Below, in pieces: positions 731 through 33,156 of a stretch of 64,000 nucleotides of DNA. Source of the DNA: Anaeromyxobacter terrae (GTDB taxonomy: Bacteria > Myxococcota > Myxococcia > Myxococcales > Anaeromyxobacteraceae); the NCBI RefSeq assembly GCF_022690685.1, contig NZ_JALCYY010000019.1, positions 1 to 64,000 of the forward strand, read 5' to 3'. Both the position numbers and the translations under genes were made by a program. The notes beneath the pieces are model-generated. The model ran no database searches, was not told the origin of the DNA, and saw only the letters and a program-made list of their open reading frames with translations. The number at the start of each line of letters is the position of its first letter. Position 1 is the stretch's first letter.

Positions 731-1733
<1,003 letters not shown>

Positions 1734-1741
<8 letters not shown>

Positions 1742-2522: not shown

Positions 2523-2533
2523 CCCCGCACCTC

Positions 2534-2586
2534 CATGTAGGCTATGCACCTACATGTCAGCGTATAGGACGCTACATGGATGTCAA
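2534..2586 (-). promoter_or_regulatory. putative parAB promoter/operator with three CTACATG heptamers
   Basis: On the minus strand a perfect TTGACA (-35-like, 2586-2581) precedes TATACG (2566-2561); the 14-base spacing is short, but TACGCT at 16 bases is an alternative -10. The heptamer CATGTAG or its complement CTACATG occurs at 2534-2540, 2550-2556 and 2572-2578, the first two forming an inverted repeat. The arrangement suggests an operator overlapping the promoter, as expected for an autoregulated partition operon. Confidence 0.45.
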
Positions 2587-2633
2587 CACGCATCTACGTG
2601 GTTCTCGGGCAGCCGCTGCTGAGCGCTGCTCGT

Positions 2634-2653
2634 CGACGTCACCGGTGACGTCG
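2634..2653. promoter_or_regulatory. 20-bp perfect palindrome, candidate parS-like site or operator
   Basis: CGACGTCACCGGTGACGTCG is fully self-complementary over 20 bases. It lies 112 bases upstream of the parA start and 219 bases upstream of the HEPN gene, in the divergent region between them. ParB binding sites are palindromes of about this size, but the sequence differs from the well-known chromosomal parS, so a dedicated parS or a repressor operator are both possible. Confidence 0.4.
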
Positions 2654-2871
2654 CGCTCGTTGCCACGGTGTCCCGCCGACTGGCTTGGCATCCTAACTGG
2701 CCACGGCTGTGAGAGCGGGGGGCTCAGCCCTGGTCAGAGCCGACGACGAGCAGCGCCACCCCCTCCGCCCGCAGTAGGCTACGCTTGCTGCTCGCGCCAC
2801 GGCAGGGAGCCGCCAGCACGGCGCAGTGGTACGCGGCGCCGGTCCGTCACTCAAACCACCGCGAAAAGAGA

Positions 2872-3843
2872 ATGGCTACACGTCCTCAGCAGCCCAAGGA
2901 TCCGCTTCTCGCAAACGCGATCGAGGCCATCGAGAACGGGATCGAAGATTTCACAGAAGGTCGACCACAGCGCGTGTCTTCGGCGCTTCGGAACCTCTGT
3001 GCCGGCGTGCTGCTTCTGCTGAAGGAGAATCTCCGCCAACTCTCGCCGCCCGGAACCGATGGTGCGCTGATCTTCAAGAAGTTAGTTCCGAAGCCCTTGG
3101 GCGGAGCGGTTGTGTTCGTCGGGAAGGGCAAGTCGACCGTCGACCTGGAAGATATCAGGGAGCGGCTCGAGCCCCTGGGATTCAACGTCGAATGGCAACG
3201 AATCTTCCGGTTGCGAGACCTGCGGAACGATGTGGAGCACCATCGATCCGTGCATCCCCACACAACGATGCAGGAGGCGATCGCGAACACGTTCGTGGTT
3301 GTTGTGAGGATTCTGGAGCAGCTTGGGCTTGAGCCAGCCCACGAGCTCTCTGAGAAAACATGGGCGGAGATGCTGGCCCAAGCCGAGACCTTCAAGGCAC
3401 TGGAAGACGAGTGTCGAAAGTCCATCGACCGCGTGATCGGTGTACCTGACGAGGCACAGGAAACGCTCAGGGTCTGGCGATGCTGTCCGGAATGCAGTTC
3501 GGAGTTGATACAGGCGATCGGAACCGAGTACGCCGACCTAGCCTTTGTCTGCCGAGCCTGCGGCGCTCGGTCGGAGCTCCCAGGCGTCTTGGAGAAGGCC
3601 CTTGAGGGCGAGTATGCGGGCGACGCGTACGAGGCGGCCAAGGATGGCGACGAGCCGCCGCTGGCAGTGTGCCCCAACTGCTGCTCCGAGACCTTTGTGG
3701 TCGCCTCGGACGTCTGCCTGGTGTGCGGCGAGGGACGCAGCTACGAGAACTGCAACTTGTGCGGGAATTCGTTGTCCGTCGAGGAGCAAGACTTCGATGG
3801 ACTGTGTTCCTACTGCCACCATCGGATGACGAAGGACGACTGA
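2872..3843 (+). CDS. HEPN-like protein with C-terminal multi-zinc-ribbon region
   Basis: A 323-residue protein. The ATG at 2872 follows an AAAGAGA site; an upstream GTG/ATG extension is low-complexity. The N-terminal half is all-alpha and ends in RLRDLRNDVEHH, where R118 and H123 form the Rx4H signature of HEPN domains, a fold of many RNases and toxins. The C-terminal part carries six CxxC-type knuckles (C205/208, C227/230, C267/270, C282/285, C294/297, C312/315), enough for two or three zinc ribbons. The metallopeptidase gene follows after 46 bases on the same strand, suggesting one operon. Less GC-rich than flanking chromosome. RNase activity is inferred from the motif only; a regulatory HEPN role is possible. 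Confidence 0.6.
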   Translation: MATRPQQPKDPLLANAIEAIENGIEDFTEGRPQRVSSALRNLCAGVLLLLKENLRQLSPPGTDGALIFKKLVPKPLGGAVVFVGKGKSTVDLEDIRERLEPLGFNVEWQRIFRLRDLRNDVEHHRSVHPHTTMQEAIANTFVVVVRILEQLGLEPAHELSEKTWAEMLAQAETFKALEDECRKSIDRVIGVPDEAQETLRVWRCCPECSSELIQAIGTEYADLAFVCRACGARSELPGVLEKALEGEYAGDAYEAAKDGDEPPLAVCPNCCSETFVVASDVCLVCGEGRSYENCNLCGNSLSVEEQDFDGLCSYCHHRMTKDD

Positions 3844-3889
3844 TGTGCGCGAGGCCCCTGCGACGATTCAGTCGAGGAGTACGCCGCCC

Positions 3890-4549
3890 ATGACTTTCGA
3901 GGCTTCGCTCGCTCTCCTGAGGGAACGCGCCCCTTCCACCGCTCTCAATGGCTGGCGACTCCTTCGCGTAATCAACCGACCGTTCGGTCATCCGGGCGAG
4001 TTCGTACCCAGTCGCGATCCGCGCCAGCTCACGGCGCTCATATACATCCGGACAGGCCGGAGTCCTCGAGACACGCTGTTCACTCTATGTCACGAGCTGG
4101 GTCACTTCTGGTCGCATTCAACCGGGCGACGTGACGCCACGTATATGCGAGCAGTAGTCGAGTTCACGAAGTGGCAGAGTTCGCTCGCGTCAGATATCCG
4201 GAACTCGCCGGAGGTCCTGGCAACTTCACGTGAGTCGGCCACCTACGCACCGGCGTACGACAACGCGCTCAAGAGTGCGTTGTCGCGGCGGCCGAACCCC
4301 CTCTCCGAAGCGGAGAGACACGCGATCGTTTCTGAGGAACTTCGCGCGTGGTGCTTCGGCTATCAAATTGTGGAAGCGCTGAAGGTGCCCACAGGAGAGG
4401 CGTTTGAAGCCGAGGTGAACTCCTCTGTGGCGAATTACTGCGAACGCGCACAAGTCGCGGCCATCGTGTGGGAAGCGAAGGGATGCGCCGAGGACCTGAC
4501 GGTCGCCGACAGGGACTTCATCGCCAGCCTGACGAGGCCGGCCAGTTGA
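3890..4549 (+). CDS. putative zinc metallopeptidase (HExxH, ImmA/IrrE-like)
   Basis: A 219-residue protein with LFTLCHELGHFWSH; H68-E69 and H72 form the HExxH zinc site. A downstream helix SEELRAWCFGYQIVEAL (E149/E150) corresponds in position to the acidic third-ligand helix of ImmA/IrrE (M78) peptidases. Those enzymes cleave repressors or act as antitoxin-like or stress switches. I chose the ATG at 3890 because GAGGAG lies ten bases upstream; a GTG at 3845 would add 15 unconvincing residues. It follows the HEPN gene closely, so the two probably act together. The substrate is unknown. Confidence 0.6.
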   Translation: MTFEASLALLRERAPSTALNGWRLLRVINRPFGHPGEFVPSRDPRQLTALIYIRTGRSPRDTLFTLCHELGHFWSHSTGRRDATYMRAVVEFTKWQSSLASDIRNSPEVLATSRESATYAPAYDNALKSALSRRPNPLSEAERHAIVSEELRAWCFGYQIVEALKVPTGEAFEAEVNSSVANYCERAQVAAIVWEAKGCAEDLTVADRDFIASLTRPAS

Positions 4550-4704
4550 CGGGAGCTTCCATGCGAGTCCAGGGCTGGCCAAGGAGCCTGGATCTGGCGC
4601 CGAGGACGCCGACGCGGCGGGCACGGGCAGATCCAGCTGAAGAGCACGGTCGCCGGTGGTGCCGCTCGCGGCCAGAAGATCCACATCGATCTCGCGCGGC
4701 GGAC

Positions 4705-4875
4705 GATGCCCTGACACTCCGCGACGAACACGAAGTCGATGAACCCAAGGCAGCACGGTTCATGATTCCTTGGGTCGAGCTGGAGGCAGAGGCGGTCCTT
4801 GTCGACCCGCTCGTATGGCGCCCACGGCAGGAAGGCGGGCTTCGCAGCCTGAACTGCGACCACCTCCGCGCGTAG
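4705..4875 (+). pseudogene. fragment of a CoiA-like nuclease gene
   Basis: The frame ending at the TAG 4873-4875 reads HEVDEPKAARFMIPWVELEA and then VDPLVWRPRQEGGLRSLNCD. This matches the middle of the intact CoiA-like protein at 8910-9986 (THAVTKEKAEGLSIPWIELAA, then SPLRWVPHRDGLRPLRCD). Nothing upstream in frame resembles the N-terminal half. It is therefore a remnant of a second, related gene rather than a duplicate at high identity. Confidence 0.6.
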
Positions 4876-5393
4876 GGTTCGAGCACCGCTGGCGCTGGTG
4901 CGTTGCTGTTCCTTCACCATCAGCTCGAAAGCGTAAACAAGCCCGAAGCCCTGCTCCGCGATGGATCAGCGGGCCGTTAACGACGCTCGCTCGCGGGGCT
5001 TGCGCGCGATGACGAGCTTGAGCGGACGAACCCACTTCCCGTTCTTCCAGACACCGCGGTCCGTCCGGCTGTGTCGTCTGGTATTAGTCGAAGAGCTCCC
5101 GGCCACCGAGTCGGCATGAGCTTCCTAGTCCTGGGCGGCCCGCCCGGTGGGCCGATGCCGCCGCTCGACGGCTACCGAATGGCCCGGCACGTGAAGGCCA
5201 ACGCGCAAGGAGTGAAGACCCTTCGTAGAGCGACTCGACAGATTCCCCGCTCTGCTTTTGCACCCGTTCCGGACATCGCCAGCCTCTCGGACTGGCTCTT
5301 CGGGCCGCCCCAAGGGACGACGCGATGACCGCACCGACCGCCACTTCGCGCACATCGATATTCTGGTGTCCGCTCCTCGAGTAACGTGCTCGC
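4876..5393. other. gene-poor stretch with possible decayed coding sequence
   Basis: No convincing gene. On the minus strand near 4975-5075 a short frame reads GVWKNGKWVRPLKLVI, which recalls the EWRDGKWVKRP segment near the C-terminus of the intact CoiA-like protein. On the plus strand at about 5340-5363 the frame reads RHFAHID, identical to that protein's N-terminal RHFAHID. Both matches are too short to prove homology, but they fit debris from CoiA-like genes. Confidence 0.3.
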
Positions 5394-8300
5394 ATGGGCA
5401 CGTTCCGCCGCTCCAGGCTCGCGCCTGGGATCTACGACGAGGTCATTACCGGTGCAGTCGAGGCGCAGCTGCAGCAGCTGGACGGTTCCACCTTCGCGAT
5501 CGAGCGTAAGCATATCGAGAAGTCCGCGGACGTGGCGCCGCCCCTTGCGGCGCTCCTCCGCGACGCGCTCGACCTCACACTGGACGAGCTCGGTGGTGAA
5601 TCCGCGAAAGCGCTCAAGCTGGCCGAGGACGTCCTCGGGACCCTGGCCCGGCATGCGCCCCGCGTCTTCAAGCACGGCGAAGTTCAGCTTCGGCCGGAGC
5701 GGCTCCTTGGGATCGTTCCGAAGCCGGCCGCCCTGCCCTCCTTCCCGCGCGGGTCCCTGCACACTTCGAACCTCATCGTCAACGCCGAGGGCGAGTCGCT
5801 GCTGGACCACCTCCGAAGCGAGTTCGAGAGCGCTGACCGCATCGACCTACTGTGCGCATTTGTGAAGCTGAGCGGGTTCGAGAAGCTCCGCTCGGCTATC
5901 GAGCGCCACTGCATCTCCCGTGGGCGGCCACTTCGCGTTCTCACGACGACGTATATGGGCGCGTCGGATGCTCGGGCCATCGAGCGGTTCGCTGCGCTAC
6001 CGAACTCGGCGATCCGGGTCTCCTACGACGACCAAACCACGCGCCTCCATGCGAAGGCCTGGGTGTTCCACCGGGAGAGCGGCGTCTCGACCGCGTACGT
6101 CGGCAGCTCGAACCTCTCCCACGCCGCGCAGACCGACGGCCTCGAGTGGAACGTCCGCGTCACCGAAGGCGACCAGCCGGTGCTGCTGGCTCAAATGGCG
6201 GAGACCTTCGAGCAGTACTGGGCTGACCAGGCGCTGTTCGAGCCCTTCGAAGCCGGGAAGGAGGCGCACCGGAAACGGCTCGCGCGAAGCCTCGCCGCCG
6301 CCGACCGAGATCCCGGACTCGACGCGCTGATCGAGCTCGAGGCCAAGCCGTTCCAGAAGCCCGTCCTCGAGGAGCTCGCCGCCGCGCGCGCCCTCGGACG
6401 TCGCCGTAACCTCCTGGTGGCCGCCACCGGTACGGGCAAGACCGTGATGGCCGCCCTCGACTACGTGGCGCTGCGCCAAGCGGGCACGGTCGACACGCTC
6501 CTGTTCGTCGCGCACCGCCGCGAGATCCTAGAGCAGGCCCGAGCGCTGTATCGCGCCGCTCTTCAGTCCTCGGAGTTCGGTGAGCTCCTGTACCAGGGGC
6601 AGGAGCCCACCATCGGCCATCACGTCTTCGCGTCCATCGACTCCCTCCGTGACGACCGGCTCGATCCGAAGCGGTTCGACATGATCGTCATCGACGAGGC
6701 GCACCACTCGCCGGCGTTTAAGTGGGAGTCGTTCCTGGCGAAGGTAGGCGACCGCGCCGAGGTCCTCGGCCTCACCGGGACTCCCGAGCGCGCCGACGGC
6801 CTCGACTACGACCATCTCTTCCCGCGGCCCTGGATCGGCAATCTCCGGATCTGGAACGCCATCCCGCAGGCTCTCGTGCCGTTCCGCTACTACATGCTCG
6901 AAGTTGAGGGCGTGGACCTCCGGGACGTGGGCTGGGCCGCTGGACGGTACGCATCCGACGAGCTCGCCGGAAAGCTCATCGGGGCCGCCGAGCTGTTCGT
7001 GCACCGCGCCGTAAAGGCGGTCGCCGAGTACGTCGCTCGCCCGGAGCAGCTTCGGGCGATCGCCTTCTGCGCCAGCATCCGGCACGCCGAGATCGTCGCG
7101 GAACAGTTCGCAAGACGAGGCTTCCGCGCACAGGTGCTCACAGGCGAGACACCGGCGTTGGAACGGCGCCAGGCCAGGAGCGACCTCAACCTCGGCAAGA
7201 TCCAGGTCCTCTGCGTCGTCGACATCTACAACGAGGGGGTCGACGTCCCGAACGTCAACACGCTCTTCTTCTTCCGTCCGACGGAGAGCTCGACGGTGTT
7301 CCTGCAACAGCTCGGCCGCGGGCTCCGCCTCGCGCGCAACAAGGCCGAGCTCGTCGTCTTCGATCTGACCGGTCGCCAGCATGACGGATTCCGCTTCGAT
7401 CAGCGCTTCCGCCGCATGCTCGGGAAGACACCGCGGGAACTTCGCGAGGGTCTTGAGCGCGGGTTTGCAAAGCTCCCGGCGGGCTGTCACCTCCACCTCG
7501 ACGAGATCGCGCGCACGTACGTCCTTGAGCAGCTCGAGCGATCCATTCCGGACACCATCGATGAGCTCCGGGCGCTCCTTCGCGAGCCGGCGCACTCGGG
7601 GCTTTCCCTCGACGATTTCGTTCTCGAGACCGAGGTCGGCCTGGACGTCATATACAGGCAGAAGCGCTCCTGGACCGAGCTGCGCCGTAGCGTCGGGCTG
7701 GAGGACCGCCCGCTCGCGGCAGGTGAAGGTGAGGCGCTCGAGAACATCTGCAAGCTGACCCACGTCGGCGACGGGCTCCGGCTGGAGACGTGGAAGAAGA
7801 TCCTCCGCCTCGAGCGACCGCAGGTTGCGCTCGAGGAGCGCGCGCAGGATATGCTGTTCGCGGTCCTATACGGGCGGGAGCTAGCCGCAAACAGGAACGA
7901 CGCCTGGAACGCGTGGACCCGTCACGAACTCCTCCGCGAAGAAGTCGCGGCGCTAATCCCGGTCCTCGCCCGCGAGAACGCGGTGCTCGCGCCTGATCTC
8001 CGCCTCGAGCCGGCGAACCCGCTCGTCCTGCACGCCCGCTACCTCGGCGTCGAGCTCAGCGCCGCGTTCGAGCGTCGCACCGAGGCCGGCACGTTTCGGG
8101 ACTTCTACACCGGCGTCGAGCCGGTGGCGGACGGCCGTTTCGACATGCTCCTAGTCACTCTCGAGAAGAGCGCCGCGCAGAAGGAGCACCTCCGCTACCG
8201 GGATTTCCCGCTCTCCGACCGGCGTTTCCACTGGCAATCGAAGGCGGGTACGACCCAGGCGTCGAAACAGGGACGCCGCCACCTGAGTCCGCAGAGCGAG

Positions 8301-8486
8301 GGATGCACGCCCTTGCTGTTCGTCCGCGAGCGTGCAGACGCCCGACCCGGCGTGACGATGGCCTTCCGTTATCTCGGCCCGGTCCAGCCGGTACGTGTAG
8401 AGGGTGAGAGGCCGATCACCATCGAGTGGGACCTGGCGAATCCCATGCCGCCGGAGCTCGTCCGGGTGGGACGCATTGCGTCTTGA
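5394..8486 (+). CDS. PLD-nuclease / DEAH helicase / DUF3427 protein
   Basis: A 1030-residue multidomain protein. A phospholipase-D-like nuclease domain comes first, with the HxK motif at HAKAW (H219) and YVGSSNLSHAA after it. A superfamily 2 helicase follows: Walker A ATGTGKT at 344-350, DEAH box at 434-437, motif III LTGTPERADG, and motif VI QQLGRGLRLA near 638. The C-terminal 300 residues match the DUF3427-type end of such proteins. The architecture predicts an ATP-driven DNA translocase with its own nuclease; relatives often lie in mobile or defence islands, which fits this context. It stands alone on its strand, about 0.8 kb after the metallopeptidase gene. No frameshift is visible, so it is probably functional. 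Confidence 0.85.
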   Translation: MGTFRRSRLAPGIYDEVITGAVEAQLQQLDGSTFAIERKHIEKSADVAPPLAALLRDALDLTLDELGGESAKALKLAEDVLGTLARHAPRVFKHGEVQLRPERLLGIVPKPAALPSFPRGSLHTSNLIVNAEGESLLDHLRSEFESADRIDLLCAFVKLSGFEKLRSAIERHCISRGRPLRVLTTTYMGASDARAIERFAALPNSAIRVSYDDQTTRLHAKAWVFHRESGVSTAYVGSSNLSHAAQTDGLEWNVRVTEGDQPVLLAQMAETFEQYWADQALFEPFEAGKEAHRKRLARSLAAADRDPGLDALIELEAKPFQKPVLEELAAARALGRRRNLLVAATGTGKTVMAALDYVALRQAGTVDTLLFVAHRREILEQARALYRAALQSSEFGELLYQGQEPTIGHHVFASIDSLRDDRLDPKRFDMIVIDEAHHSPAFKWESFLAKVGDRAEVLGLTGTPERADGLDYDHLFPRPWIGNLRIWNAIPQALVPFRYYMLEVEGVDLRDVGWAAGRYASDELAGKLIGAAELFVHRAVKAVAEYVARPEQLRAIAFCASIRHAEIVAEQFARRGFRAQVLTGETPALERRQARSDLNLGKIQVLCVVDIYNEGVDVPNVNTLFFFRPTESSTVFLQQLGRGLRLARNKAELVVFDLTGRQHDGFRFDQRFRRMLGKTPRELREGLERGFAKLPAGCHLHLDEIARTYVLEQLERSIPDTIDELRALLREPAHSGLSLDDFVLETEVGLDVIYRQKRSWTELRRSVGLEDRPLAAGEGEALENICKLTHVGDGLRLETWKKILRLERPQVALEERAQDMLFAVLYGRELAANRNDAWNAWTRHELLREEVAALIPVLARENAVLAPDLRLEPANPLVLHARYLGVELSAAFERRTEAGTFRDFYTGVEPVADGRFDMLLVTLEKSAAQKEHLRYRDFPLSDRRFHWQSKAGTTQASKQGRRHLSPQSEGCTPLLFVRERADARPGVTMAFRYLGPVQPVRVEGERPITIEWDLANPMPPELVRVGRIAS

Positions 8487-8538
8487 GCCGGAAACTGTGG
8501 ACCGTCACACCGATCGCCCGGCTCCACAGACCCCTATT

Positions 8539-8796
8539 CTACTGGCAGTAGACCATCTTTCCGCCAATAAGCACGATCCGATGATTACCGGCCTCATACG
8601 TCTCATCACCAGTCTGCCGCACCGGCCCGTGTCTCCGTAGTCTCCGAAGCCGCTCGTCAGTTGTGATTCCGACAGCGAAGGGATCGGCCCCGTGATCGAG
8701 GTATTCCTGTAGTTGGGGCGGCCGGGTACACCCAGCGCAGCGTCAGTCCCCTACTGTATCCTTGCGGCACTGGGGAGGGTGCTCGCCGTGTCCCAT
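8539..8796 (-). pseudogene. short hypothetical gene with an in-frame TGA
   Basis: On the minus strand an ATG at 8796 opens a frame interrupted after 17 codons by TGA (8745-8743) that then stays open for 67 codons to the TAG at 8541-8539. The open part is strikingly protein-like: LQEYLDHGADPFAVGITTDE, then ETYEAGNHRIVLIGGKMVYC at the end. No start codon lies after the TGA in frame. I do not recognise the family. It is either a decayed gene or one started at an unseen site; the rest of 8487-8909 holds nothing else I can support. Confidence 0.4.
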
Positions 8797-8909
8797 GAAG
8801 CGACCGACGCCGGAACTCCCAGCCGCCCGGAACATCTCGTCCTCTGGGCGATGAGTAGCCCCTCGCGCTCCCTTGGCATTCGGTAACATTCGACTTGCGG
8901 AGGCCAGAT

Positions 8910-9986
8910 TTGCTCAGCGTTCCATGGGCGCTCGACGCGAACGGGCAGCTTGTTACCCCTGACGACGTTTCGTCAAGCGAGGGCATTCGGTGCCCGAATT
9001 CAGCCTGTGGCAGTCGCCTGATTCTTCGCGCCGGGGAGAAGCGGGTTCGCCACTTCGCTCATATCGATGAGGGTCGGTGTTCTCAGGAGAGCATTGAGCA
9101 TGCGGCCGCGAAGTACCTCCTGGTGAAGCTCGTTCTGGCATCCCTGTCAGAGCCGGGGAAGCGACCGGTCATCCATCGTCGCTGTCCCGAATGCGGCAAG
9201 GTAGTTCCTCAGCCATTGCCCGATAAAGTCAAGGACGCTCGAGTAGAGGGAACGGTGGATGGCTTTCGCGCGGACGTTCTACTCTTGGACGACGCCCAGC
9301 GACCTCTCTGCGCTCTTGAGGTGCTCCATACGCACGCGGTGACCAAGGAGAAGGCGGAGGGTCTTTCGATTCCTTGGATCGAACTCGCGGCAGCCCAGGT
9401 TCTCGCTTCGCCGCTGCGGTGGGTCCCGCACAGAGATGGCCTTCGACCTCTGCGATGTGACCACGCAGGAACCGACTACCTTCTCAGGAAGGAAGAGGAG
9501 GCAAGGCGCAAGAAGAGGGCTGGGGAAGACGAAGAAAGGCGCAAGCGAGAGGCTGCTGAAGAAGGAGCAAGGCGCAAACGGGAGGCTGCAGAGGAGGAAG
9601 CAAGGCGGGTCGAGACGATCCGTATTCGCGCCGGATGGTGTCCGTTTCCTCTGGCTCCTGGCGAGTATCTCGCGGAAATCACGGGCCCCGCATACCGCTG
9701 GTGGCCGATTTACGCGTGGCGGTCCGAATCGATGCAGCAGGCAATCACGGTGGTGGAGGCGCGCCTCCGGGACAGCCGCGAGTTCTGCCGCTACTTCCAA
9801 CCACGGAGCACCGTCTCGGTATCGATACGAGATTGGAACGGAACCTTAGTAGGGGGGGAATGGCGAGATGGAAAGTGGGTCAAACGCCCCGCGGACGGGG
9901 GCGTTGTGGACCGGGATCTCCGTGCCGTACGGACCGTACGAGTGCGGCTAGTGATGCCGCCCATAGGTCGCAGGCCGAGGATGTAG
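8910..9986 (+). CDS. CoiA-like (competence-type) nuclease family protein with charged coiled coil
   Basis: A 358-residue protein. I chose the TTG at 8910 because GGAGG at 8899-8903 precedes it by six bases. The N-terminal part has a CxxxxC-type zinc knuckle (CPNSAC) followed by RHFAHID, a hallmark of CoiA-like proteins, and a second pair CPEC. A PD-(D/E)xK-like core follows (FRADVLLLD, then LCALEVLHTH), then IPWIEL. Next is a strongly charged coiled coil with near-identical tandem units (RRKREAAEEGA, RRKREAAEEEA). The C-terminal domain (about residues 245-358) is not recognised. Function is probably DNA processing or defence. A related fragment lies at 4705-4875. Confidence 0.65.
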   Translation: MLSVPWALDANGQLVTPDDVSSSEGIRCPNSACGSRLILRAGEKRVRHFAHIDEGRCSQESIEHAAAKYLLVKLVLASLSEPGKRPVIHRRCPECGKVVPQPLPDKVKDARVEGTVDGFRADVLLLDDAQRPLCALEVLHTHAVTKEKAEGLSIPWIELAAAQVLASPLRWVPHRDGLRPLRCDHAGTDYLLRKEEEARRKKRAGEDEERRKREAAEEGARRKREAAEEEARRVETIRIRAGWCPFPLAPGEYLAEITGPAYRWWPIYAWRSESMQQAITVVEARLRDSREFCRYFQPRSTVSVSIRDWNGTLVGGEWRDGKWVKRPADGGVVDRDLRAVRTVRVRLVMPPIGRRPRM

Positions 9987-23779: not shown

Positions 23780-24970
23780 TTACGGACCGATCACGCTGAC
23801 GATCGCCTGCAGCTGCTCGTCCGTCAGGCCGAACGCCATGTTGCGGTCCTTGATCAGCTGGACCGTGATGCCCTTGCCCTTCAGGTTGCTCGTCTCGAGC
23901 GGCCCGTGGCAGCTCGCGCAGGACTGGCCGTACAGCGCGGCGCCGTCGATCGGGGGCGTGTACGTGCACGCCTGCTGGACGATGGGTGTGCCGCCGGTGC
24001 AGCCGTCCGGCGACGAGGTGAGCACGGTGCGCGTCTGCGTGCCGTCCGGCTGGCAGGCGCTCCAGTCCGAGTAGGTGAAGGAGGTGCACTCGACGGCGGG
24101 CGGCGTGTACGTGCAGGCCTGCGAGAGCACCGGGCTACCGCCGGTGCAGCCCTCGGGCGAGGACGTCAGCACCGTGCGCGTCTGCGTCCCGTCGGACTGG
24201 CAGGCGCTCCAGTCCGAGTAGGTGAAGCTCGTGCAGGTCGCCGGGGGAGTGTAGGTGCACGGCTGCGAGAGTTCCGGGCTACCGCCGGTGCAGCCCTCGG
24301 GCGAGGACGTCAGCACGGTGCGCGTCTGCGTCCCGTCGGGCTGGCACGCGTCCCAGTCCGAGTAGGTGAAGCTCGAGCACGTCACCGGGGGCTGGCCGTA
24401 CGTGCACGACTGCGTGAGGACGGGCGTACCCGTACAGCCATCGGGGCTGGAGGAGATCACGGTCCGCGTCTGCGTCCCGTCCGGCTGGCAGGCGCTCCAG
24501 TCCGAGTAGGCATACGTGCACGCCGTCGGAGGAGTCACCGCCGCCGGAAGGTTTTCCGCGTGGAACACTCCGGAGGCGAGGTCCGTGAGTGGTGCCGAGA
24601 AGATCACCCCGCCCGTCTCGCGGTTGGTGATCGTCACGTTCCCCTCGCGGTCGCGGGTGATCTTGACGACGCCGAGCAGCGGCACGACGCCGGTGCTCCC
24701 CTCGATCGCCACGGGCCTCGGGACCCGGAAGTTCTCGAACAGCGGGGCCAGCGCCGGGACCGTGCGCAGCTCGTTCAGGACGTCCATGAACGTCTTCACC
24801 GCCCGCTCGGGCGCGACCCCGGGTGACAGCTCCCTCGCGGCCGCGCGGACGGCCGCGGTGGCCTGCGCGTCGGCGGCGGGCGGGGAGCTGCCGTCACCGC
24901 ATCCACTGGTCGTCAACCCGGCGACGAGCGCGCCGACGGCGAGCGAGTTGAGAATCCGGTTCATCTGCAT
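23780..24970 (-). CDS. lipoprotein with four thrombospondin-type repeats and a C-terminal c-haem motif
   Basis: A 396-residue exported protein; the ATG at 24970 follows GGAG by five bases. The signal peptide has a lipobox (GLTTSGC). After about 130 residues come four near-identical units of about 48 residues (YSDWSACQPDGTQTRTV..SSPDGCTG..), a TSP1-like Cys/Trp pattern also found in other bacterial surface proteins. The C-terminal 60 residues hold LYGQSCASCHG (CxxCH), KGKGITVQLIKDR and a helix ending in ISVIGP-like residues, a mini cytochrome c with no clear distal Met in its usual spacing. Combination of adhesion-like repeats with a haem domain is unusual. Role possibly surface electron transfer (inference). 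Confidence 0.7.
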   Translation of the reverse strand: MQMNRILNSLAVGALVAGLTTSGCGDGSSPPAADAQATAAVRAAARELSPGVAPERAVKTFMDVLNELRTVPALAPLFENFRVPRPVAIEGSTGVVPLLGVVKITRDREGNVTITNRETGGVIFSAPLTDLASGVFHAENLPAAVTPPTACTYAYSDWSACQPDGTQTRTVISSSPDGCTGTPVLTQSCTYGQPPVTCSSFTYSDWDACQPDGTQTRTVLTSSPEGCTGGSPELSQPCTYTPPATCTSFTYSDWSACQSDGTQTRTVLTSSPEGCTGGSPVLSQACTYTPPAVECTSFTYSDWSACQPDGTQTRTVLTSSPDGCTGGTPIVQQACTYTPPIDGAALYGQSCASCHGPLETSNLKGKGITVQLIKDRNMAFGLTDEQLQAIVSVIGP

Positions 24971-25423
24971 TGCGTCTCCGATCTTGGCGGCGCGACCTCC
25001 GCTGCGGAGCCCGCGCCGCGCCGTGAAAGGGGGCGCCGCGCGCGCCGCGTCCGGATGAGAACGCGGCGGGCGCGGCGTGGGGACGTGTGCTGAGGCCTCG
25101 CCTCCTGACCACATCGCGCCGGGGCGGATCCCCGGGGGCGTGCGATCGGACGGGTCACGTCAGCACCAGGCGTGCCCGCGGCGAGTGAACCGATTATCGG
25201 GCGCTTGCGAGCCCGGTGCGCCCGCGTGGGCTGCCTGATTTTCGATGTGCGATATCGCGAATTCGAGGCTCGCGTGACCCAGCCGTGGTGCAGGCCCGCG
25301 CGGTGCTGACGGCGATCATGATTCGCGAACAGGACGCCGAGTACGGGGAGGGGCTCCGCCGACGCCAGCCAGGCCTCGGCGGGCGGGGGGCGCAATTCGC
25401 GCCACCCTCCGTCTCGTTCATGT
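24971..25423. other. intergenic stretch
   Basis: Leader region of the gene at 23780-24970 and 3' region of the helicase gene. It includes a less GC-rich patch near 25230-25280 (GATTTTCGATGTGCGATATCGCGAATTCG) with overlapping small palindromes, perhaps a promoter or binding site. No gene supported. Confidence 0.3.
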
Positions 25424-27034
25424 TCACCCCAGCCCCGGCCAGCGCCCTTGCCCGTGATGAGGCGCCACGATCCGCGCCGCCACCAGCGCGCGCGTCAGCG
25501 CGATGTGCATGCGCGTCCCGAACTGCTTCAGGCCAGGGTCCACGTCCGCGACCACGATGGCCGGACGCTCGAGTCCCTTCCAGCGCAGGAAGGTGTCCGC
25601 GACGAGGCCGCTCTCCATCTCCGGATGGTCCGCGTGCACGAACGCGTGGCGCCCGATGCGCTCGCGCGAGTGGATGGCGTCGGGCGCCGTCTGGCCGCGC
25701 AGGGACACGACCCCGATGTCGGCGAGCGTCAGCCCCTGCGAGAGAAGACGGTCGATCTCCTCCCCCACCCGGTCGGCCGTCTTCGCGGCGTCGGCGCACT
25801 CCACGAGCGCGAGCGTGCGGTCATGCACGGCGGCCGCGATCGCCTTCTCGTCCCCGCTCTCCCCGGCGTAGCGCGCGGCGAGCGCGCCCACGCCCGCCGG
25901 GCAGCGCTGACCCCGCGTCAGCCGGAACGTCGTCGCGAACAGGTCGGGGACCGGCGCACGGTCGGGCCAGAACCCCTGGCCTGGATCGTGGAAGGCCCAT
26001 AGCCGCGCGCCCTCGGCGAGGCCGCGGACGAGGTACCAGGCCTCGAAGGTGAGGTCCTGCCCCTCGTCCACGACGACGGCGTCCCAGCGCGGCTCGCAGA
26101 GGTCCGCCGCGCGCTCGTACGTCGTCTGCCAGTACTCGTTCGCCGTGAGGTCCCCCTGCCGGTTCGGGCCGTCCGCCGCGTCGGCGATGGACTTGGCAAG
26201 CCCGCTCACCGTCTGGACCTCGACGCCGCTGCCGGCGAGCCGCACCTCGAGCCACTTCCGCAGCGGCTGCGTGAAGCAAAGGAGCAGCACGCGCTTCCCC
26301 TCCGATGCGTGACGCCGCGCCGCCTCGGCCGCGAGGAGCGTCTTGCCGGAGCCGGCGCCGCCACGGACGAGGACGCGGTCGTTCTCGAGGAGGCCCTCGA
26401 GCGCGGCCAGCTGGACGTCGTCGAGCGCGAACTGCCGCTCGCCCAGCGAGCGGAGCCGGGTGCCGAGCGAGAGCGCCGGGACCCACGTCTCGCCCCACAG
26501 CTGATGGAGCCGGTCGATCCAGCCATTGGTGCCCGGCTTCGGCGCCGGCAGGGCGCGATCGATGACGCCGGGGAGCGCCTCCCCGAGCCAGCGCAGCTGC
26601 ATCCGCCCGAGGACGACGCCGCGCAGCACGTCCTCCTGCGGCTGCTCGTCGAAGTCGGTATCCGGCAGGGCCAGGGCCGCGCCGAACGCCGGGGGAAAGC
26701 ACCTCCAGTCCTCGAGGCGCCGCTCGAGCTTGTGAGCGAACCCGTGCGCCTGGTCGAGGGGAGCCGTGTCGAACGGGATCCCGTTCGTGAACCAGCGCCC
26801 GTCGCGCTGCTCGATGTGGCCGCCCTTCACCTCCAGGACGAGCAGGCCACGCTGCGGGTGAGCGAGGACGAAGTCGCCCTCTCCCAGGTAGTTCCGGCCG
26901 TCGCGGATGCGGATCGAGTGCCAGGCGGTCCAGCCGGCGGGGAGCCCGTTCTTCAATGCCTTCCAGACGGTTCGCTCTGCTTCGGACTTCGCGGGACGGG
27001 GCGCTTCGGCGGGATTGAGGCGCGGAGGCGGCAC
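25424..27034 (-). CDS. NERD-domain superfamily 1 helicase
   Basis: A 536-residue protein if the GTG at 27034 is used; the frame is open further upstream, so the start is uncertain. The N-terminal NERD nuclease-related domain has GEGDFVLAHPQRGLLVLEVK. The helicase core has Walker A GGAGSGKT, a Walker B DAVVVDEGQDL (the DEGQD variant of UvrD-like enzymes), TFRLTRGQRCPAGV, and a C-terminal MHIALTRAL motif VI. Predicted role is DNA or RNA processing, repair or defence. A short decayed copy of its central part lies at 40411-40519. Confidence 0.8.
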   Translation of the reverse strand: MPPPRLNPAEAPRPAKSEAERTVWKALKNGLPAGWTAWHSIRIRDGRNYLGEGDFVLAHPQRGLLVLEVKGGHIEQRDGRWFTNGIPFDTAPLDQAHGFAHKLERRLEDWRCFPPAFGAALALPDTDFDEQPQEDVLRGVVLGRMQLRWLGEALPGVIDRALPAPKPGTNGWIDRLHQLWGETWVPALSLGTRLRSLGERQFALDDVQLAALEGLLENDRVLVRGGAGSGKTLLAAEAARRHASEGKRVLLLCFTQPLRKWLEVRLAGSGVEVQTVSGLAKSIADAADGPNRQGDLTANEYWQTTYERAADLCEPRWDAVVVDEGQDLTFEAWYLVRGLAEGARLWAFHDPGQGFWPDRAPVPDLFATTFRLTRGQRCPAGVGALAARYAGESGDEKAIAAAVHDRTLALVECADAAKTADRVGEEIDRLLSQGLTLADIGVVSLRGQTAPDAIHSRERIGRHAFVHADHPEMESGLVADTFLRWKGLERPAIVVADVDPGLKQFGTRMHIALTRALVAARIVAPHHGQGRWPGLG

Positions 27035-27563
27035 GGGGACAGGGTGCCCAGAAGACAGAAACGAGTCAAACGGCCTCGGCAGAGCGCGCCCACGAGCAGT
27101 CCATCCCTCGCCGAAGGGACACGCCCGCCAGTCACGCCGGGTGATGACCTCCCTATTGGGCATAATTGAACCACACGTTGACATGTTGCGATCAATCCAG
27201 TACAAATGTTCTTCCGATGTTCGGCCCGATTCCATCAAGACGAGGCGAGGGCGGCGGCCCGATGACCCTCGGCCAGCTCCCGGCACCCCGGGGATGTGGC
27301 AATGCCGCCTGCGATGGAGGCCCCTTGACCCACGAGAGAACGACGTAGCCGGAATCCTGGCGTGATCGTTGCGGCGTCCCGCGGGCGCAGCGATGCCACG
27401 CCAGCCGTGCGGGTCGCCCGGGCCGCCGCAACGGCTCCGGCCCCGCCATGTCCGTGCGTCGCGTAGGGTGTTCCTGCCGAAGCCACGTCCTTCCCAAGAC
27501 CATCGAACCCGCTGCTCGCCAGCGGGATGGGACCCGTGCGTCCCGAGAAGGGAGATTGCGCAA
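27035..27563. other. intergenic region with a plus-strand promoter
   Basis: Contains an AT-richer island at about 27150-27225 with good promoter elements (listed next). From 27230 to 27560 there is no convincing protein frame in either strand. It may be a leader or hold a small RNA. Confidence 0.35.
27178..27206 (+). promoter_or_regulatory. sigma-70-type promoter
   Basis: TTGACA at 27178-27183, a 17-base spacer, then TACAAA at 27201-27206 in the least GC-rich patch of the region. It points toward the small cluster beginning at 27564, leaving a leader of about 350 bases. Confidence 0.45.
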
Positions 27564-29012: not shown

Positions 29013-29444
29013 ATGCACACCCCCACCATCGCCGATGCCGTCGCGCTCGCGGCCGAGAAGCACCGGGATGCCACCGACAAGGGCGGCGCGCCGTACATCC
29101 TCCACCCGCTGCGGGTCATGCTGGCGATGACCACCGACGAGGCGCGCCGCGTCGCCGTGCTCCACGACGTCATCGAGGACGCGGGCGTCACGCCGGACGA
29201 GCTGCAACGGCGCGGCTACCCGGACCGCGAGGTGGCCGCGCTCGTCGCGCTCACGAAGCGGACCGGAGAGGACTACGCGACCTTCATCGAGCGCGTTCGC
29301 CCCGACCCGCTCGCCGCGACGGTGAAGCGGGCGGATCTCCTCGACAACATGGACGTCCGAAGGCTCTCGGCCTTCGGAGCCGCGGACGCGGAGCGCATGG
29401 CGCGCTACCTGGCCGCGTGGAGGCGGCTTTCCGGCGGGGAGTAG
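29013..29444 (+). CDS. small HD-domain alarmone-hydrolase-like protein
   Basis: A 143-residue protein starting at ATG 29013, with AGGAGAAG upstream. Motifs of the SpoT/MESH1-type HD domain are present: AEKHRDATDKGGAPYILHP, LRVMLAM, VAVLHDVIEDAGV and, later, VKRADLLDNM. Such small enzymes hydrolyse (p)ppGpp to GDP/GTP plus pyrophosphate. There is no synthetase domain. It ends the cluster that begins at 27564. Confidence 0.75.
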   Translation: MHTPTIADAVALAAEKHRDATDKGGAPYILHPLRVMLAMTTDEARRVAVLHDVIEDAGVTPDELQRRGYPDREVAALVALTKRTGEDYATFIERVRPDPLAATVKRADLLDNMDVRRLSAFGAADAERMARYLAAWRRLSGGE

Positions 29445-29457
29445 GCCGCGTCGGTGA

Positions 29458-29493
29458 CGCGCGAGTAGGTCCGCGGGAGAGGTCGCTCGCGCG
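29458..29493. terminator. hairpin between convergent genes
   Basis: CGCGCGAG at 29458-29465 pairs with CTCGCGCG at 29486-29493 around a 20-base loop, between the stops at 29444 and 29495. The long loop makes it only a moderate candidate. Confidence 0.35.
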
Positions 29494-29494
29494 C

Positions 29495-29998
29495 TCACCT
29501 TGCGGCACTTCGGATCGCGAGCGGCCTCGGCGGCGCGCGCAGCGGCTCGCCGTCCGTGAGCAAGGAGGCCTCGACGACGTAGTCGCCCGGCGCGACGGCT
29601 TCTCCGGCGTTCGTGCGCTGGTCCCAGCTCGCGTCGACCTCCAGCCGCTCGCCAGGCCGGAGCGCACGCAGCTGCACGATGGCGGGAATGATCTCGCCTT
29701 CGAGGCGGTGCCAGACGACAGTCCCGTCGCCTCGCCCGACGACGACGTCGAGCGTGGGGGCGCGACCTCGCAGGTAGAGATCGATCGCGTGCTGCGTGAC
29801 GTTCTCGGCGCGGAGGCGGAGCCGCACCGGCTCGCCGGCGGGGACCCGCGGCTCGAGCAGGAGCTCGACGTGGATCGAGTCTTGCGCAGCGAGGGTCACG
29901 CTCGAGCCTCCGGGAGGATGCTGACCGGTGCGCCCCGGGCCGTCGGCGCGGCAGGCCGCCGCCGCGAGCGCCATCGCGGCCACGAGGACGAAGCGCAC
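29495..29998 (-). CDS. BsuPI-type proteinase-inhibitor-like lipoprotein
   Basis: A 167-residue exported protein from the GTG at 29998, with no strong ribosome site. A signal peptide ends ALAAAAC. The mature part has the immunoglobulin-like beta pattern of BsuPI (IHVELLLEPRVPAGEPVRLR, then VVWHRLEGEIIPAIVQLRAL and WDQRTNAGEAVAPGDYVVEA), a family of putative protease inhibitors first known from Bacillus. It lies 65 bases after the serine protease gene on the same strand, so an enzyme-inhibitor operon is plausible. Confidence 0.7.
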   Translation of the reverse strand: MRFVLVAAMALAAAACRADGPGRTGQHPPGGSSVTLAAQDSIHVELLLEPRVPAGEPVRLRLRAENVTQHAIDLYLRGRAPTLDVVVGRGDGTVVWHRLEGEIIPAIVQLRALRPGERLEVDASWDQRTNAGEAVAPGDYVVEASLLTDGEPLRAPPRPLAIRSAAR

Positions 29999-30063
29999 GA
30001 GGGCCGGTCGGCCAGTGGATGCGCCGGGGCGAACGGGCAACCCGCCCCGGCGCGGCAGGCGCT

Positions 30064-31122
30064 TCACTGCGTCGTCACGAGCGCGCCGAGCTCGTCCTCC
30101 ACCTGCTTCAGCGGGCTGAACACGAACCGGGTGCCCGTACCGTTGCCGCCCCAGAGGATCCCCACCAGCCGCGCGGTGCTCGCGCCCGTGAGCTGGAACA
30201 CGCCGGACCCGCTGTCGCCGCCCTGGACGACGACGGCGCCGTTCGGGTTCTGCACGAGGGTCTGGCAGAGCAGCGTGATGTTGGATCCGGAGACGTTCGT
30301 GTCGGCGCACGTGGCCGTCACGTTGCCCTGCGTCCAGCCCGTGGTGCGGCCGACCTTGTTGACCGTGGTGCCGACCGCGAAGCTCGACGTGGCGTTGTCC
30401 TGCGAGGTGATGCTGAACGACCCCGTCACCGTGAGGCTGCCGTTGTTCGGGCCCGACGTCCGCGCGATCGCGCCGCGAGACGACGCCACGGCCGTGCTGT
30501 AGAGCGCGCGAGAGCTGTCGCTGTAGCGGCACTTGCGCCCGCGCGGGCATGGGGCGCCGCGGAAGTAGGTCGGATCCTCGACCTCTGTGGCGATGACGGT
30601 CGAGTCGACGGTGCTCGTCGGCTGGTAGTACCGGGTGCCCTCGACGGCGCCCTGCTTGCCCGTGCAGTGGGAGGCGGTGACGAACGAGCGATCCCCGCCG
30701 TGGTCGGCGTTGAAGCCGAGAGAGCAGAGATAGCCGCCGAAGTGGATCTGGACACCGTTGATGGTCGGGCGCCACTTATCGCGGAGCGTGACGAGCTGGT
30801 AGATGGGCTCCGTCTCCTCGATCGTGAACGCCGTGTCGGGGATGCCGAGGCGCGCGAGCGCGGCGCGCGCGGCCGGTTCCGCCCGCGCGTGCTCGATCCC
30901 GAACACGAGCCGGCCGCCGGCCTCGTCGATGTAGGCGAGGACGGTGTCGGGGAGCGCGAGGACTTCCGGCGAGGCCCTCGCGAACCAGCGAGCGAGCTGG
31001 TCCTGGCCCTGGGCCGCCACCGCCTGGGCGTCGCCGCTCGTGGCCTGTTCGTCCGGTCCGCCCCCGCAGGACACGGCGAGGGCGATGAGGAGGATGCCGA
31101 TTGCTTCATGCTTCAGGCGCAT
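30064..31122 (-). CDS. secreted trypsin-like serine protease
   Basis: A 352-residue protein; the ATG at 31122 follows GAGG by six bases. A signal peptide with a lipobox-like end (ALAVSC) and a pro-region of about 100 residues precede the S1 domain. The active-site histidine is in SFVTASHCTG (H152), the likely aspartate in YSDSSRALY (D202) and the serine in GGDSGSGVF (S304). The layout resembles streptogrisin/alpha-lytic-type proteases with a cleaved pro-region. The BsuPI-like gene is directly downstream. Confidence 0.85.
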   Translation of the reverse strand: MRLKHEAIGILLIALAVSCGGGPDEQATSGDAQAVAAQGQDQLARWFARASPEVLALPDTVLAYIDEAGGRLVFGIEHARAEPAARAALARLGIPDTAFTIEETEPIYQLVTLRDKWRPTINGVQIHFGGYLCSLGFNADHGGDRSFVTASHCTGKQGAVEGTRYYQPTSTVDSTVIATEVEDPTYFRGAPCPRGRKCRYSDSSRALYSTAVASSRGAIARTSGPNNGSLTVTGSFSITSQDNATSSFAVGTTVNKVGRTTGWTQGNVTATCADTNVSGSNITLLCQTLVQNPNGAVVVQGGDSGSGVFQLTGASTARLVGILWGGNGTGTRFVFSPLKQVEDELGALVTTQ

Positions 31123-31467
31123 GTGTGACCTCACATTCGCTGTGATCCGCTGTTCGACGCACATCGGCGGCCGAAGAGACCCGACCGGTTCGGCCGCAAT
31201 TCTCGATCGCACGCGGGTCGCCACGAACCGGCGAAAGAGCGAAAGAGAGGGCGACCACGAAGGGCGTGGCAATCAGTCCGCCAGTCGCTGGAGCGGGCGC
31301 GCTCTCGTGCGGCTCCCGCCATATAGAGCCGGATCGGGGCAGCTCCGGCGAGCGGAGGCCGCGGCGCGGGGGAGCGCGTCGACCGTCGCGCCTGCGCGAG
31401 CGCCAGCTCTGGGATCGAGCTACTCCCAGGGCTCGACGCGCGATTCCTCGCGGCGACGCGCCTCGCG
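31123..31467. other. intergenic stretch
   Basis: Leader of the protease gene and 3' end of nrfA. No gene and no hairpin I can support. Several GC-rich runs give open frames without starts. Confidence 0.3.
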
Positions 31468-33156
31468 CTACCTCGTCGGAGCCGAGGTCGGGACGACGGC
31501 GGGCGGCGTCGTGGGACCGAGGGCCGTGGTGGTGCCGCGGAGCTGCGTCGCCTTCACCTCCGCCTGACGCGAGAGGTCGATGGATTCGCCGAGGATGCGG
31601 CCGAGCTCCTGAGGCGCGTGGAAGCCCATCGAGTTCTCGGCGGCCACGAAGTCGAGGCGCCACTGCGCGGCGCGCTGCAGCCGCTCGAGCTCCTGCAGCG
31701 CGGGCGTCTTCGCGACGACGTCGCGCCAGGCGGCGAGCAGGTTCGCCTTCACCTCGGCGTCCATCTTCTTGTCCTGCTCCTCCTTCGCGAGCTTCTGGAA
31801 GCTCTCCTGCTTCTCCAGGCTCTCCTTCGCCTTCGCGACCGCCGCGGCACGGTTCTTGTCGTCGTACGGCTTCCGCGCGGCGACGATGGCGTCGATCATC
31901 GCGACCGCCGCCTTCCCGGCGCGGGTGAGCAGCGCGAAGTGGCGGTCCTGGATGGCCGTGACGCGGGCCTTCAGCTCGTCGTCGTTGTACGGGTGGCAGT
32001 TCGCGCAAGCGCGGTTCGGCTGCAGGAGCGGACTGCGAACCCAGTGGTCGGAGTACTTGAGCGCGCCCTCGCGCTTGTACGGCATGTGGCAGTCGGCGCA
32101 CGTGACGCCGCTCCGGGCGTGGATCCCCTGGCTCCACACCTCGAACTCGGGGTGCTGCGCCTTGAGGACCTCGAACCCGGTCTCGGCGTGCGTCCAGTCC
32201 TTGAACCGCTGCCCCTTCACCTGCAGGTTGTCGTACAGGTGCTCGGCCTGCTCCATCTTGAGCCCCTCGGCCCAGGGGAACAGCAGCGTCATTCCCTTGC
32301 CGCAGAAGTACTCGACGTGGCACTGCCCGCACACGAACGCCCGCTTCTCCTGGCGCGTCGAGTCGAGGTTCGGATCGTACGGCTTCGACTTGTCGCCCTT
32401 CCGCCACCGGTCGATGGACGGCAGCTGCGACACGTCCGCGCCGGACGCGGCGAGCTTCTGGATGCCGGCGATGAAGCCTGGGCGCGTGACGCGCAGCTCC
32501 ATCGACGACGGATCGTGGCAGTCGACGCACGACACCGGGTGCACTTTCCCGCCGCCGAGATCCTGGAGCGCCTTGTGCGCGTCCCAGTAGCCCAGCTCGG
32601 CGACCTTCGCGAGCCCGGCCTGGATCTGCTCGGCCTCGTTCGCCTGGGGCGCGGCCTCCTTCCCGTACTTCCGGTAGAGCGGCATGATCGACGCGTGGCA
32701 GTGGAGACAGTTGCCGGACTGCTTCGCCTCGGCACGCACGTTGCGCTTCGTGTCCTCCTGGTCTTTGAGCGCCCACGCGTGGCCCCGGCGGTCGCGGTAG
32801 TCGACGGAGAAGAGGTAGCCGGCGAAGACGCGCGTCAGCCACGGGTCGCGCTTCGCCTTCTGCGGCGGCATCTCCCCCTCGGTCGTGCCGACAGCGCCGC
32901 CGTACTTCGTGCTCGTCCGCTCGGCCGTGCGCTTGTAGTCGTCGAACTCGCGGGGCCAGTTCTTGCCCCACTTCTCGGGGTCGGTGTCGTTCTCGGTGAC
33001 CTCGGCGACCTTCACGAACGAGTACTTCGCCTCGGACTTCCGCTCGCTGATGTTGACGAGCAACGCTGCGACCGCCACCGCCACGAGCGCGAAGACGCCG
33101 GTCACGAGCGCGATGAGGAGCCCGCGGTTCTTCGTGAGCTGTTTTTCGGGCGACAT
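31468..33156 (-). CDS. nrfA: cytochrome c nitrite reductase, catalytic subunit NrfA
   Basis: A 562-residue periplasmic pentahaem enzyme that reduces nitrite to ammonium with six electrons. ATG 33156 follows AAGGAG; an N-terminal membrane anchor or signal spans residues 12-34. Five haem motifs: C150-H154, C210-H214, C276-H280, C353-H357 and C384-H388. Active-site residues Y283 (CHVEY) and H323 (DWTHA) are conserved. The first motif, which in E. coli is CxxCK, is CLHCH here, as in a minority of NrfA proteins. An extra cysteine follows the tyrosine (YFCGKG). nrfH lies 45 bases upstream. Confidence 0.95.
   Translation of the reverse strand: MSPEKQLTKNRGLLIALVTGVFALVAVAVAALLVNISERKSEAKYSFVKVAEVTENDTDPEKWGKNWPREFDDYKRTAERTSTKYGGAVGTTEGEMPPQKAKRDPWLTRVFAGYLFSVDYRDRRGHAWALKDQEDTKRNVRAEAKQSGNCLHCHASIMPLYRKYGKEAAPQANEAEQIQAGLAKVAELGYWDAHKALQDLGGGKVHPVSCVDCHDPSSMELRVTRPGFIAGIQKLAASGADVSQLPSIDRWRKGDKSKPYDPNLDSTRQEKRAFVCGQCHVEYFCGKGMTLLFPWAEGLKMEQAEHLYDNLQVKGQRFKDWTHAETGFEVLKAQHPEFEVWSQGIHARSGVTCADCHMPYKREGALKYSDHWVRSPLLQPNRACANCHPYNDDELKARVTAIQDRHFALLTRAGKAAVAMIDAIVAARKPYDDKNRAAAVAKAKESLEKQESFQKLAKEEQDKKMDAEVKANLLAAWRDVVAKTPALQELERLQRAAQWRLDFVAAENSMGFHAPQELGRILGESIDLSRQAEVKATQLRGTTTALGPTTPPAVVPTSAPTR

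Follow-up and report, generated by a model that had tools for sequence, protein, structure and literature searches.

The protease gene of the window (the whole 64,000-nucleotide stretch of DNA analysed here) is directly followed by a gene for a BsuPI-domain protein, and the same arrangement recurs in most of the best-scoring relatives of this protease in Gemmatimonadota. What is new in the present analysis is that a BsuPI gene is found repeatedly beside a gene for a chymotrypsin-fold protease: the literature searched held no report tying BsuPI to a chymotrypsin-fold protease and none of a protease-BsuPI pairing. We give roughly even chances to the reading that the BsuPI partner is a cognate, reversible inhibitor or regulator of the protease in the cell envelope, and place it first, ahead of a role of the partner as helper or adaptor. 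It is debated whether the proteins of the BsuPI family truly inhibit proteases, and a conserved pair matches a definite enzyme with a definite partner.

The minus strand carries both genes, at the coordinates given in the earlier note, and the 65-base gap was confirmed from the sequence: exactly 65 bases separate the stop codon of the protease gene from the GTG start of the BsuPI gene downstream of it (Table 1). The term "one operon" was drawn from this spacing, and the two genes may be co-transcribed. NrfA/NrfH-type genes (Pfam Cytochrom_C552, Cytochrom_NNT) lie approximately 350 bases upstream of the pair, and the gene downstream of it, HD-domain-like with a score slightly below its Pfam cut-off, runs in the opposite direction; the two genes seem to form a unit of their own. 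A scan of positions 29400-31600 reported neither a terminator-like nor a sigma-70-like site, and did not pick up the hairpin in the gap.

Table 1. Positions of the protease-BsuPI gene pair and its features in the window.
Feature	Position	Strand	Remarks
Protease gene	31122-30064	minus	ATG 31122, stop 30066-30064, 352 aa
Protease signal peptide to presumed lipobox C19	31066..31122	minus	ends ...IALAVSC, read by eye
Prodomain-like region, approximately residues 40-112	30787..31005	minus	limits approximate; alpha/beta elements before the barrel in the L056 model
Catalytic His152 codon	30667..30669	minus	lines up with the His-Cys of the S1 active site
Presumed catalytic Asp202 codon	30517..30519	minus	from order and invariance, not aligned directly to a solved structure
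Catalytic Ser304 codon, GDSGS	30211..30213	minus	aligned to S1 structures
Hairpin between protease and BsuPI genes	30021..30053	minus	14-pair stem, 5-base loop, no T-run
BsuPI-domain lipoprotein gene	29998-29495	minus	GTG 29998, stop 29497-29495, 167 aa
Presumed lipid-attachment cysteine C16, BsuPI protein	29951..29953	minus	signal ...MALAAAAC, by eye
Wedge-equivalent segment E102-Q109 (EIIPAIVQ)	29672..29695	minus	profile alignment with 3isy, column counts
Segment with the pair	29466..31521		flanks match sister genomes to 29465 and from 31522

The protease comprises a lipoprotein signal, an N-terminal prodomain-like region and an alpha-lytic/Nal1-like catalytic domain. An alpha/beta region at residues 40-112 or so lies ahead of the catalytic barrel in a structural model of a relative and is a putative prodomain. 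In an alignment of 32 protease rows (the window protease with 26 Gemmatimonadota and 5 other Myxococcota loci, the latter from a set of 21), H152, D202 and S304 were invariant (32/32), in the order H-D-S and with GDSG, so the intact catalytic triad that the earlier note had described stands. A lipobox-like cysteine was visible in the window protease and in at least 11 homologues; in the others the stretch shown stops short of the N-terminus. The protease had been called secreted, which is borne out in so far as it has an export signal, but because the protein itself reads by eye as a lipoprotein, it is better described as exported and membrane-anchored.

The assignment to S1 needs a similar refinement, since triad and fold match S1 whereas the Pfam match is to Nal1_C (34.6 bits, cut-off 26.1) and not to Trypsin; the Pfam Trypsin and Trypsin_2 models gave no match to the window protease at E ≤ 1. 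Among the 32 protease rows, Nal1_C was matched by 20, Trypsin_2 by 4 and Trypsin by 2 at E ≤ 0.01. Searched against the PDB, the 32-row profile found the alpha-lytic/streptogrisin proteases (best E 8.9e-10) and Nal1 (6.3e-8). The fold was taken from a model of a relative, L056, 64-66% identical to the window protease; this model has a two-barrel fold, and Foldseek returned Nal1 (7y77, 8hau) first, then the S1 group. Profile and modeled fold together place the protease with the alpha-lytic/streptogrisin group, which we take to be MEROPS S1 subfamily S1E, and with plant NARROW LEAF 1. It shares with the alpha-lytic/streptogrisin group the H-D-S order, GDSG, an N-terminal alpha/beta region before the barrel, and the fold, but differs in being lipid-anchored (by eye), in matching Nal1_C above cut-off and in being paired with BsuPI. 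Nal1, the best PDB sequence match of the window protein as well as the top Foldseek match of the L056 model, is in contrast a plant protein, and its sequence match covers only some 85 C-terminal residues.

Two variations were seen at the C-terminus within this protease family. The protease at L068 (1393-3156) has a 208-residue C-terminal CarboxypepD_reg-like extension and still keeps a separate BsuPI partner. In addition, the proteases of L060 (=L091), L070 (=L088), L080 and L082 end in a short tail of the pattern Cys...Gly...Cys-Lys/Arg/His, and L067 is alike by eye; among 1672 frames, which were not deduplicated, the pattern picked out 4 distinct tails, each of them in the window's protease family, and it is possibly a sorting or anchoring tail.

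The description of the second gene product as a BsuPI-like lipoprotein held: it has a lipoprotein-type signal and matches Pfam PF12690 with 30.3 bits (cut-off 22.9), as do all 18 aligned partners at E ≤ 0.01 (18/18). Modeled with AlphaFold (mean pLDDT 87.7), the window protein had IPI of B. subtilis (3ISY) as its top Foldseek match in the PDB (E 4.6e-7, TM 0.77 by target length), and the partner profile matched 3isy with E 2.5e-5. By eye, the N-termini of 13 of the 18 partners are of Sec or lipoprotein type, two (L056, L063) show no export signal and three are ambiguous. The protein thus shares with the IPI/BsuPI family (PF12690, formerly MEROPS I22) its Pfam match and its fold by Foldseek, and also the export signal, which is found in many members family-wide according to the part of PMC3901451 consulted. 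Unlike the IPI genes, which the same source describes as not lying near subtilisin genes, the window BsuPI gene adjoins a gene for a chymotrypsin-fold protease.

In the IPI study, wedge residues 62-68 were docked into the active-site cleft of subtilisin (PMC3901451). The profile alignment with 3isy sets residues ~102-108 of the window partner against them; the FTQ of the IPI wedge is replaced in the window's subfamily by a sequence with a consensus ending in A-I-L-Q. Ala106 of the window partner falls at the P1 place proposed for IPI, where the 18 partners have Ala (11), Met (3), Ser (2), Gly (1) or Gln (1). Proteases of alpha-lytic type have a small S1 pocket, and a P1 Ala would suit it. Elsewhere in Myxococcota, open frames of 315-343 aa that each encode two BsuPI domains occur in L025, L026, L031, L034 and overlapping loci (in the window's order in G078, G126, G082 and G080); the flanks examined around them held no protease of the window's family.

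The structure of IPI and its inhibition of subtilisins have been reported (PMC3901451), yet in the text consulted the authors leave undecided whether IPI is truly an inhibitor, and the BsuPI family was taken out of MEROPS because this status was doubtful. The targets considered there were subtilisins, the family was recorded in Gemmatimonas aurantiaca, and completely sequenced genomes were described as having no IPI gene near a subtilisin gene. The link between BsuPI and protease inhibition made by the earlier note therefore holds for subtilisin-type (S8) targets only, and is disputed even there (PMC3901451).

To what extent the pairing recurs was followed from both genes. Protease matches were present in at least 139 of 395 Gemmatimonadota genomes, with no more than five candidates scored in each genome. 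The partner scan covered the best 30 Gemmatimonadota protease loci, 21 of which score at least 325 bits, and in 17 of these 21 (one cut by a contig end) a BsuPI partner adjoins the protease gene downstream on the same strand; three (L059, L066, L078) have no partner and one (L062) has a remnant. Among the next nine of the best 30 loci the partner was found once (L085, with a broken protease frame). No partner was thus detected near 11 of the best 30 Gemmatimonadota protease loci, with 1.2-1.5 kb of downstream sequence each, and none of 21 other Myxococcota protease loci (L004-L024) had BsuPI in its 1.5-kb flanks (0/21). A wider BsuPI profile, which contains one row (L046) in the wrong frame, still found no BsuPI near 32 unpaired loci, in agreement with the narrower profile.

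From the partner side, a protease was present within 1.5 kb at 24 of the best 30 partner loci, just upstream on the same strand at 23 and on the opposite strand at one (L109). Sixteen of these 30 loci had built the BsuPI profile, and all 16 are paired; the other 14 comprise eight paired and five unpaired loci and one at a contig edge. Among the eight, L105 is the broken copy L085 that was counted from the protease side too. Co-occurrence elsewhere, whose absence the earlier note had named as counting against its proposal, is therefore seen across Gemmatimonadota loci, and the conserved adjacency and gene order expected of a protease/inhibitor operon are present in the best-scoring loci. Furthermore, in 23 neighbourhoods of 6-18 kb, several of them cut by contig ends, the protease (in 23) and the partner (in 22) were the only genes widely conserved; two more large clusters came from frames on the strand opposite the protease gene, and after them ranked a cluster in 7 loci at scattered places. 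At G323:C12, approximately 65506-66914 and 74730-76137, two low-scoring BsuPI genes lie directly behind proteases (at least two, by eye), and the pairing may reach beyond what the profile shows.

The history of the pairing was considered on a tree of 55 proteases, from which fragments and broken copies (L019, L024, L062, L085, L105, L106), duplicates (L057, L058, L088-L103) and loci without a protease were left out. Nineteen of the 25 paired rows fall inside one 28-row group and six outside it (L104, L108, L109, L112, L113, L114). Confinement of the pairing to one protease clade is ruled out by these six rows in other branches. The paired label needs 9 changes on the tree, at least 5 of them on starred (well-supported) branches, versus 18.5 in shuffles; the pairing is clustered on the protease tree, yet, given the changes on well-supported branches, it was gained or lost more than once. 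Several gains or losses fit an inhibitor and a helper alike and so leave the odds between the two unchanged. A mirror-tree correlation of r 0.44 was obtained for 18 pairs, with none of 5000 permutations as high (0/5000), and was set aside as evidence because shared descent alone could produce such an r.

The window's own pair appears to be foreign to its genus. In eight other Anaeromyxobacter genomes (one 66% complete), neither the protease nor the BsuPI gene was matched. Among 195 Myxococcota genomes, at least 17 had a protease match (up to ten candidates scored per genome) and 21 a BsuPI domain, the window's own genome included in both counts. The closest relatives of the window protease are two loci from Gemmatimonadota MAGs, L055 (65% identical) and L056 (64-66%), and both have a BsuPI partner directly behind the protease. 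In the tree the window falls in the starred 28-row group, whose other 27 rows are all Gemmatimonadota loci; no smaller starred group contains it, and the root is a midpoint root only. The left and right flanks of the pair sit at different loci in the sister genomes, and the 2 kb between them gave only short, weak matches there (E 4e-6 or worse). Since the genes have no match elsewhere in the genus and the protease groups with Gemmatimonadota, the simplest account of these sequence comparisons is that the pair was probably acquired from Gemmatimonadota as a unit.

Around the L055 pair, two Y2_Tnp transposase pieces (3172-3951 and 5891-6274; Pfam E 1.5e-14 and 2.3e-5) lie on both sides, and they could have helped it move. 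A mobile element of this kind may have spread some copies, and the window genome taken alone represents a single insertion in which adjacency could be accidental; the two neighbours might then be functionally unrelated, brought together by chance or hitchhiking. We consider this very improbable, as 18 pairs stay together amid unrelated neighbourhoods at a mean identity of 52% for the protease and 40% for the partner. Moreover, protease and partner share 17 genomes versus 1.1 expected (21 and 21 genomes among 395), a figure that is partly circular because 16 of the genomes contributed sequences to the BsuPI profile, which was thus trained in part on paired members.

The hairpin in the gap (Table 1) was compared across pairs. 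Stems of at least 11 pairs within 95 bases past the protease stop were found for 16 of 25 pairs, versus 3 in 300 windows of coding sequence and 8 in 300 single-base shuffles; among dinucleotide shuffles the window gap alone did not stand out (z -1.8; 10 of 200 were as stable). In L074 and L076 the hairpin lies within the coding frame of the partner. As a diagnostic signature of the pair the hairpin was rejected, since 7 of 11 Gemmatimonadota proteases that lack a partner are likewise followed by stems of at least 11 pairs. Because such stems occur behind unpaired proteases too, we assign it to the protease gene, as a putative terminator or an element for mRNA stability. If terminating, it might lower expression of the partner, and this counts against an inhibitor, which would be expected at a dose equal to or higher than that of the enzyme.

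Given the nearly constant adjacency of the best-scoring partners and the lack of any other widely kept gene, and since most partners look exported and the family is reported to bind proteases, the partner would most simply bind its neighbour protease. In the mechanism we propose, the partner would, on export, reach the side of the envelope where the lipid-anchored protease sits and would bind the mature enzyme there, with the BsuPI wedge (window residues ~102-109) entering or adjoining the active-site cleft. The prodomain may act as a first, cis-acting brake, and after its removal the partner would restrain the enzyme in a reversible manner. Transfer as a unit, physical binding, inhibition, wedge contact and the prodomain as brake are the parts of this scheme that we infer. 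A linked protease-partner fold, obtained by reading L056 through its stop, reached pTM 0.67 with a weaker partner domain; its input was an alignment of four read-through fusions and 26 proteases, and it gave no usable interface information on contact between protease and partner. Operons of the staphopain/staphostatin type, in which a small gene for an inhibitor comes behind that for the protease, have the same layout and would work alike. They differ in protease class and in inhibitor fold, and the inhibitor there is cytoplasmic.

Inhibition has evidence against it in addition to the hairpin and the unpaired protease loci. The partners of L056 and L063 are without an export signal, and the known BsuPI target is an S8 subtilisin. 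Self-protection, which the earlier note had suggested, is weakened in its obligate form by the unpaired loci (11 of 30 in Gemmatimonadota, 21 of 21 in other Myxococcota), at which the protease does without an adjacent inhibitor.

The second choice, for which we see a smaller though real chance, is that the BsuPI protein is a detached accessory domain that binds the exported protease and helps it as an Ig-like chaperone, a folding factor, or a substrate or surface adaptor. In many exported proteases of bacteria, Ig-like or related domains form the C-terminal part of the chain, and the L068 protease itself has its CarboxypepD_reg-like beta domain in the same chain. In L056, L073, L075 and L106 the partner frame comes right after the protease stop and in the same frame, as if a fused domain easily forms or splits, but about one third of cases would be in frame by chance. 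The broken copy L085/L105 has weak pieces of protease and partner in one frame; no intact fusion was found among the loci scanned from the protease and partner sides, and protease loci exist without a partner nearby, both of which speak against a helper. The folds nearest to IPI serve in protein-protein contacts (PMC3901451, in the text consulted), as would suit one.

The two proteins might also never touch and be co-expressed for one task, for example with the protease attacking external proteins and the BsuPI lipoprotein guarding the cell against proteases of foreign origin. Other Myxococcota BsuPI loci (L029-L054) have no window-type protease in their flanks, and relatives of the partner in G481, G468, G507, G286 and G323 (L110, L111, L115-L117) have no protease within 1.5 kb, as a partner acting independently would allow. 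However, the best-scoring partners nearly always adjoin the window-type protease, and the surroundings of the pair show no further widely kept gene that would belong to a common pathway; we therefore hold such a division of labor to be unlikely.

If the partner is indeed an inhibitor of its neighbour, the target range of BsuPI extends to chymotrypsin-fold enzymes. More speculatively, and with considerable doubt, BsuPI domains could be general, retargetable Ig-like protease wedges, here re-tuned from subtilisin-type to chymotrypsin-type targets, with protease and inhibitor moving between phyla as a two-gene envelope cassette in the manner of an enzyme and its immunity protein. Many natural versions of the pair exist, so that matched and mismatched pairs allow direct tests of whether the partner binds and inhibits the protease and of what the wedge does.

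Other parts of the window were also inspected. Positions 731-9986 have a lower GC (0.63-0.67) and hold ParB- and ParA-like genes (Pfam ParB_N, AAA_31) and a CoiA-like frame; the region is probably a mobile or defence island. A PLD-helicase-DUF3427 protein at 5394-8486 matches a PADLOC type IV restriction enzyme model (E 4.7e-182), and 2785-3843 matches the PADLOC candidate model PDC-S64 (E 3.4e-33). On the minus strand, 25424-27286 encodes a NERD-nuclease and helicase protein related to PADLOC NERD-helicase components. Also on the minus strand, 23780-25114 encodes an exported protein with four repeats of the CTSFTYSDWSACQPDGTQTRTVLTSSP kind and a C-terminal CASCH haem motif; its Cytochrome_CBB3 match is below cut-off, and we read it as a repeat-bearing c-type cytochrome.
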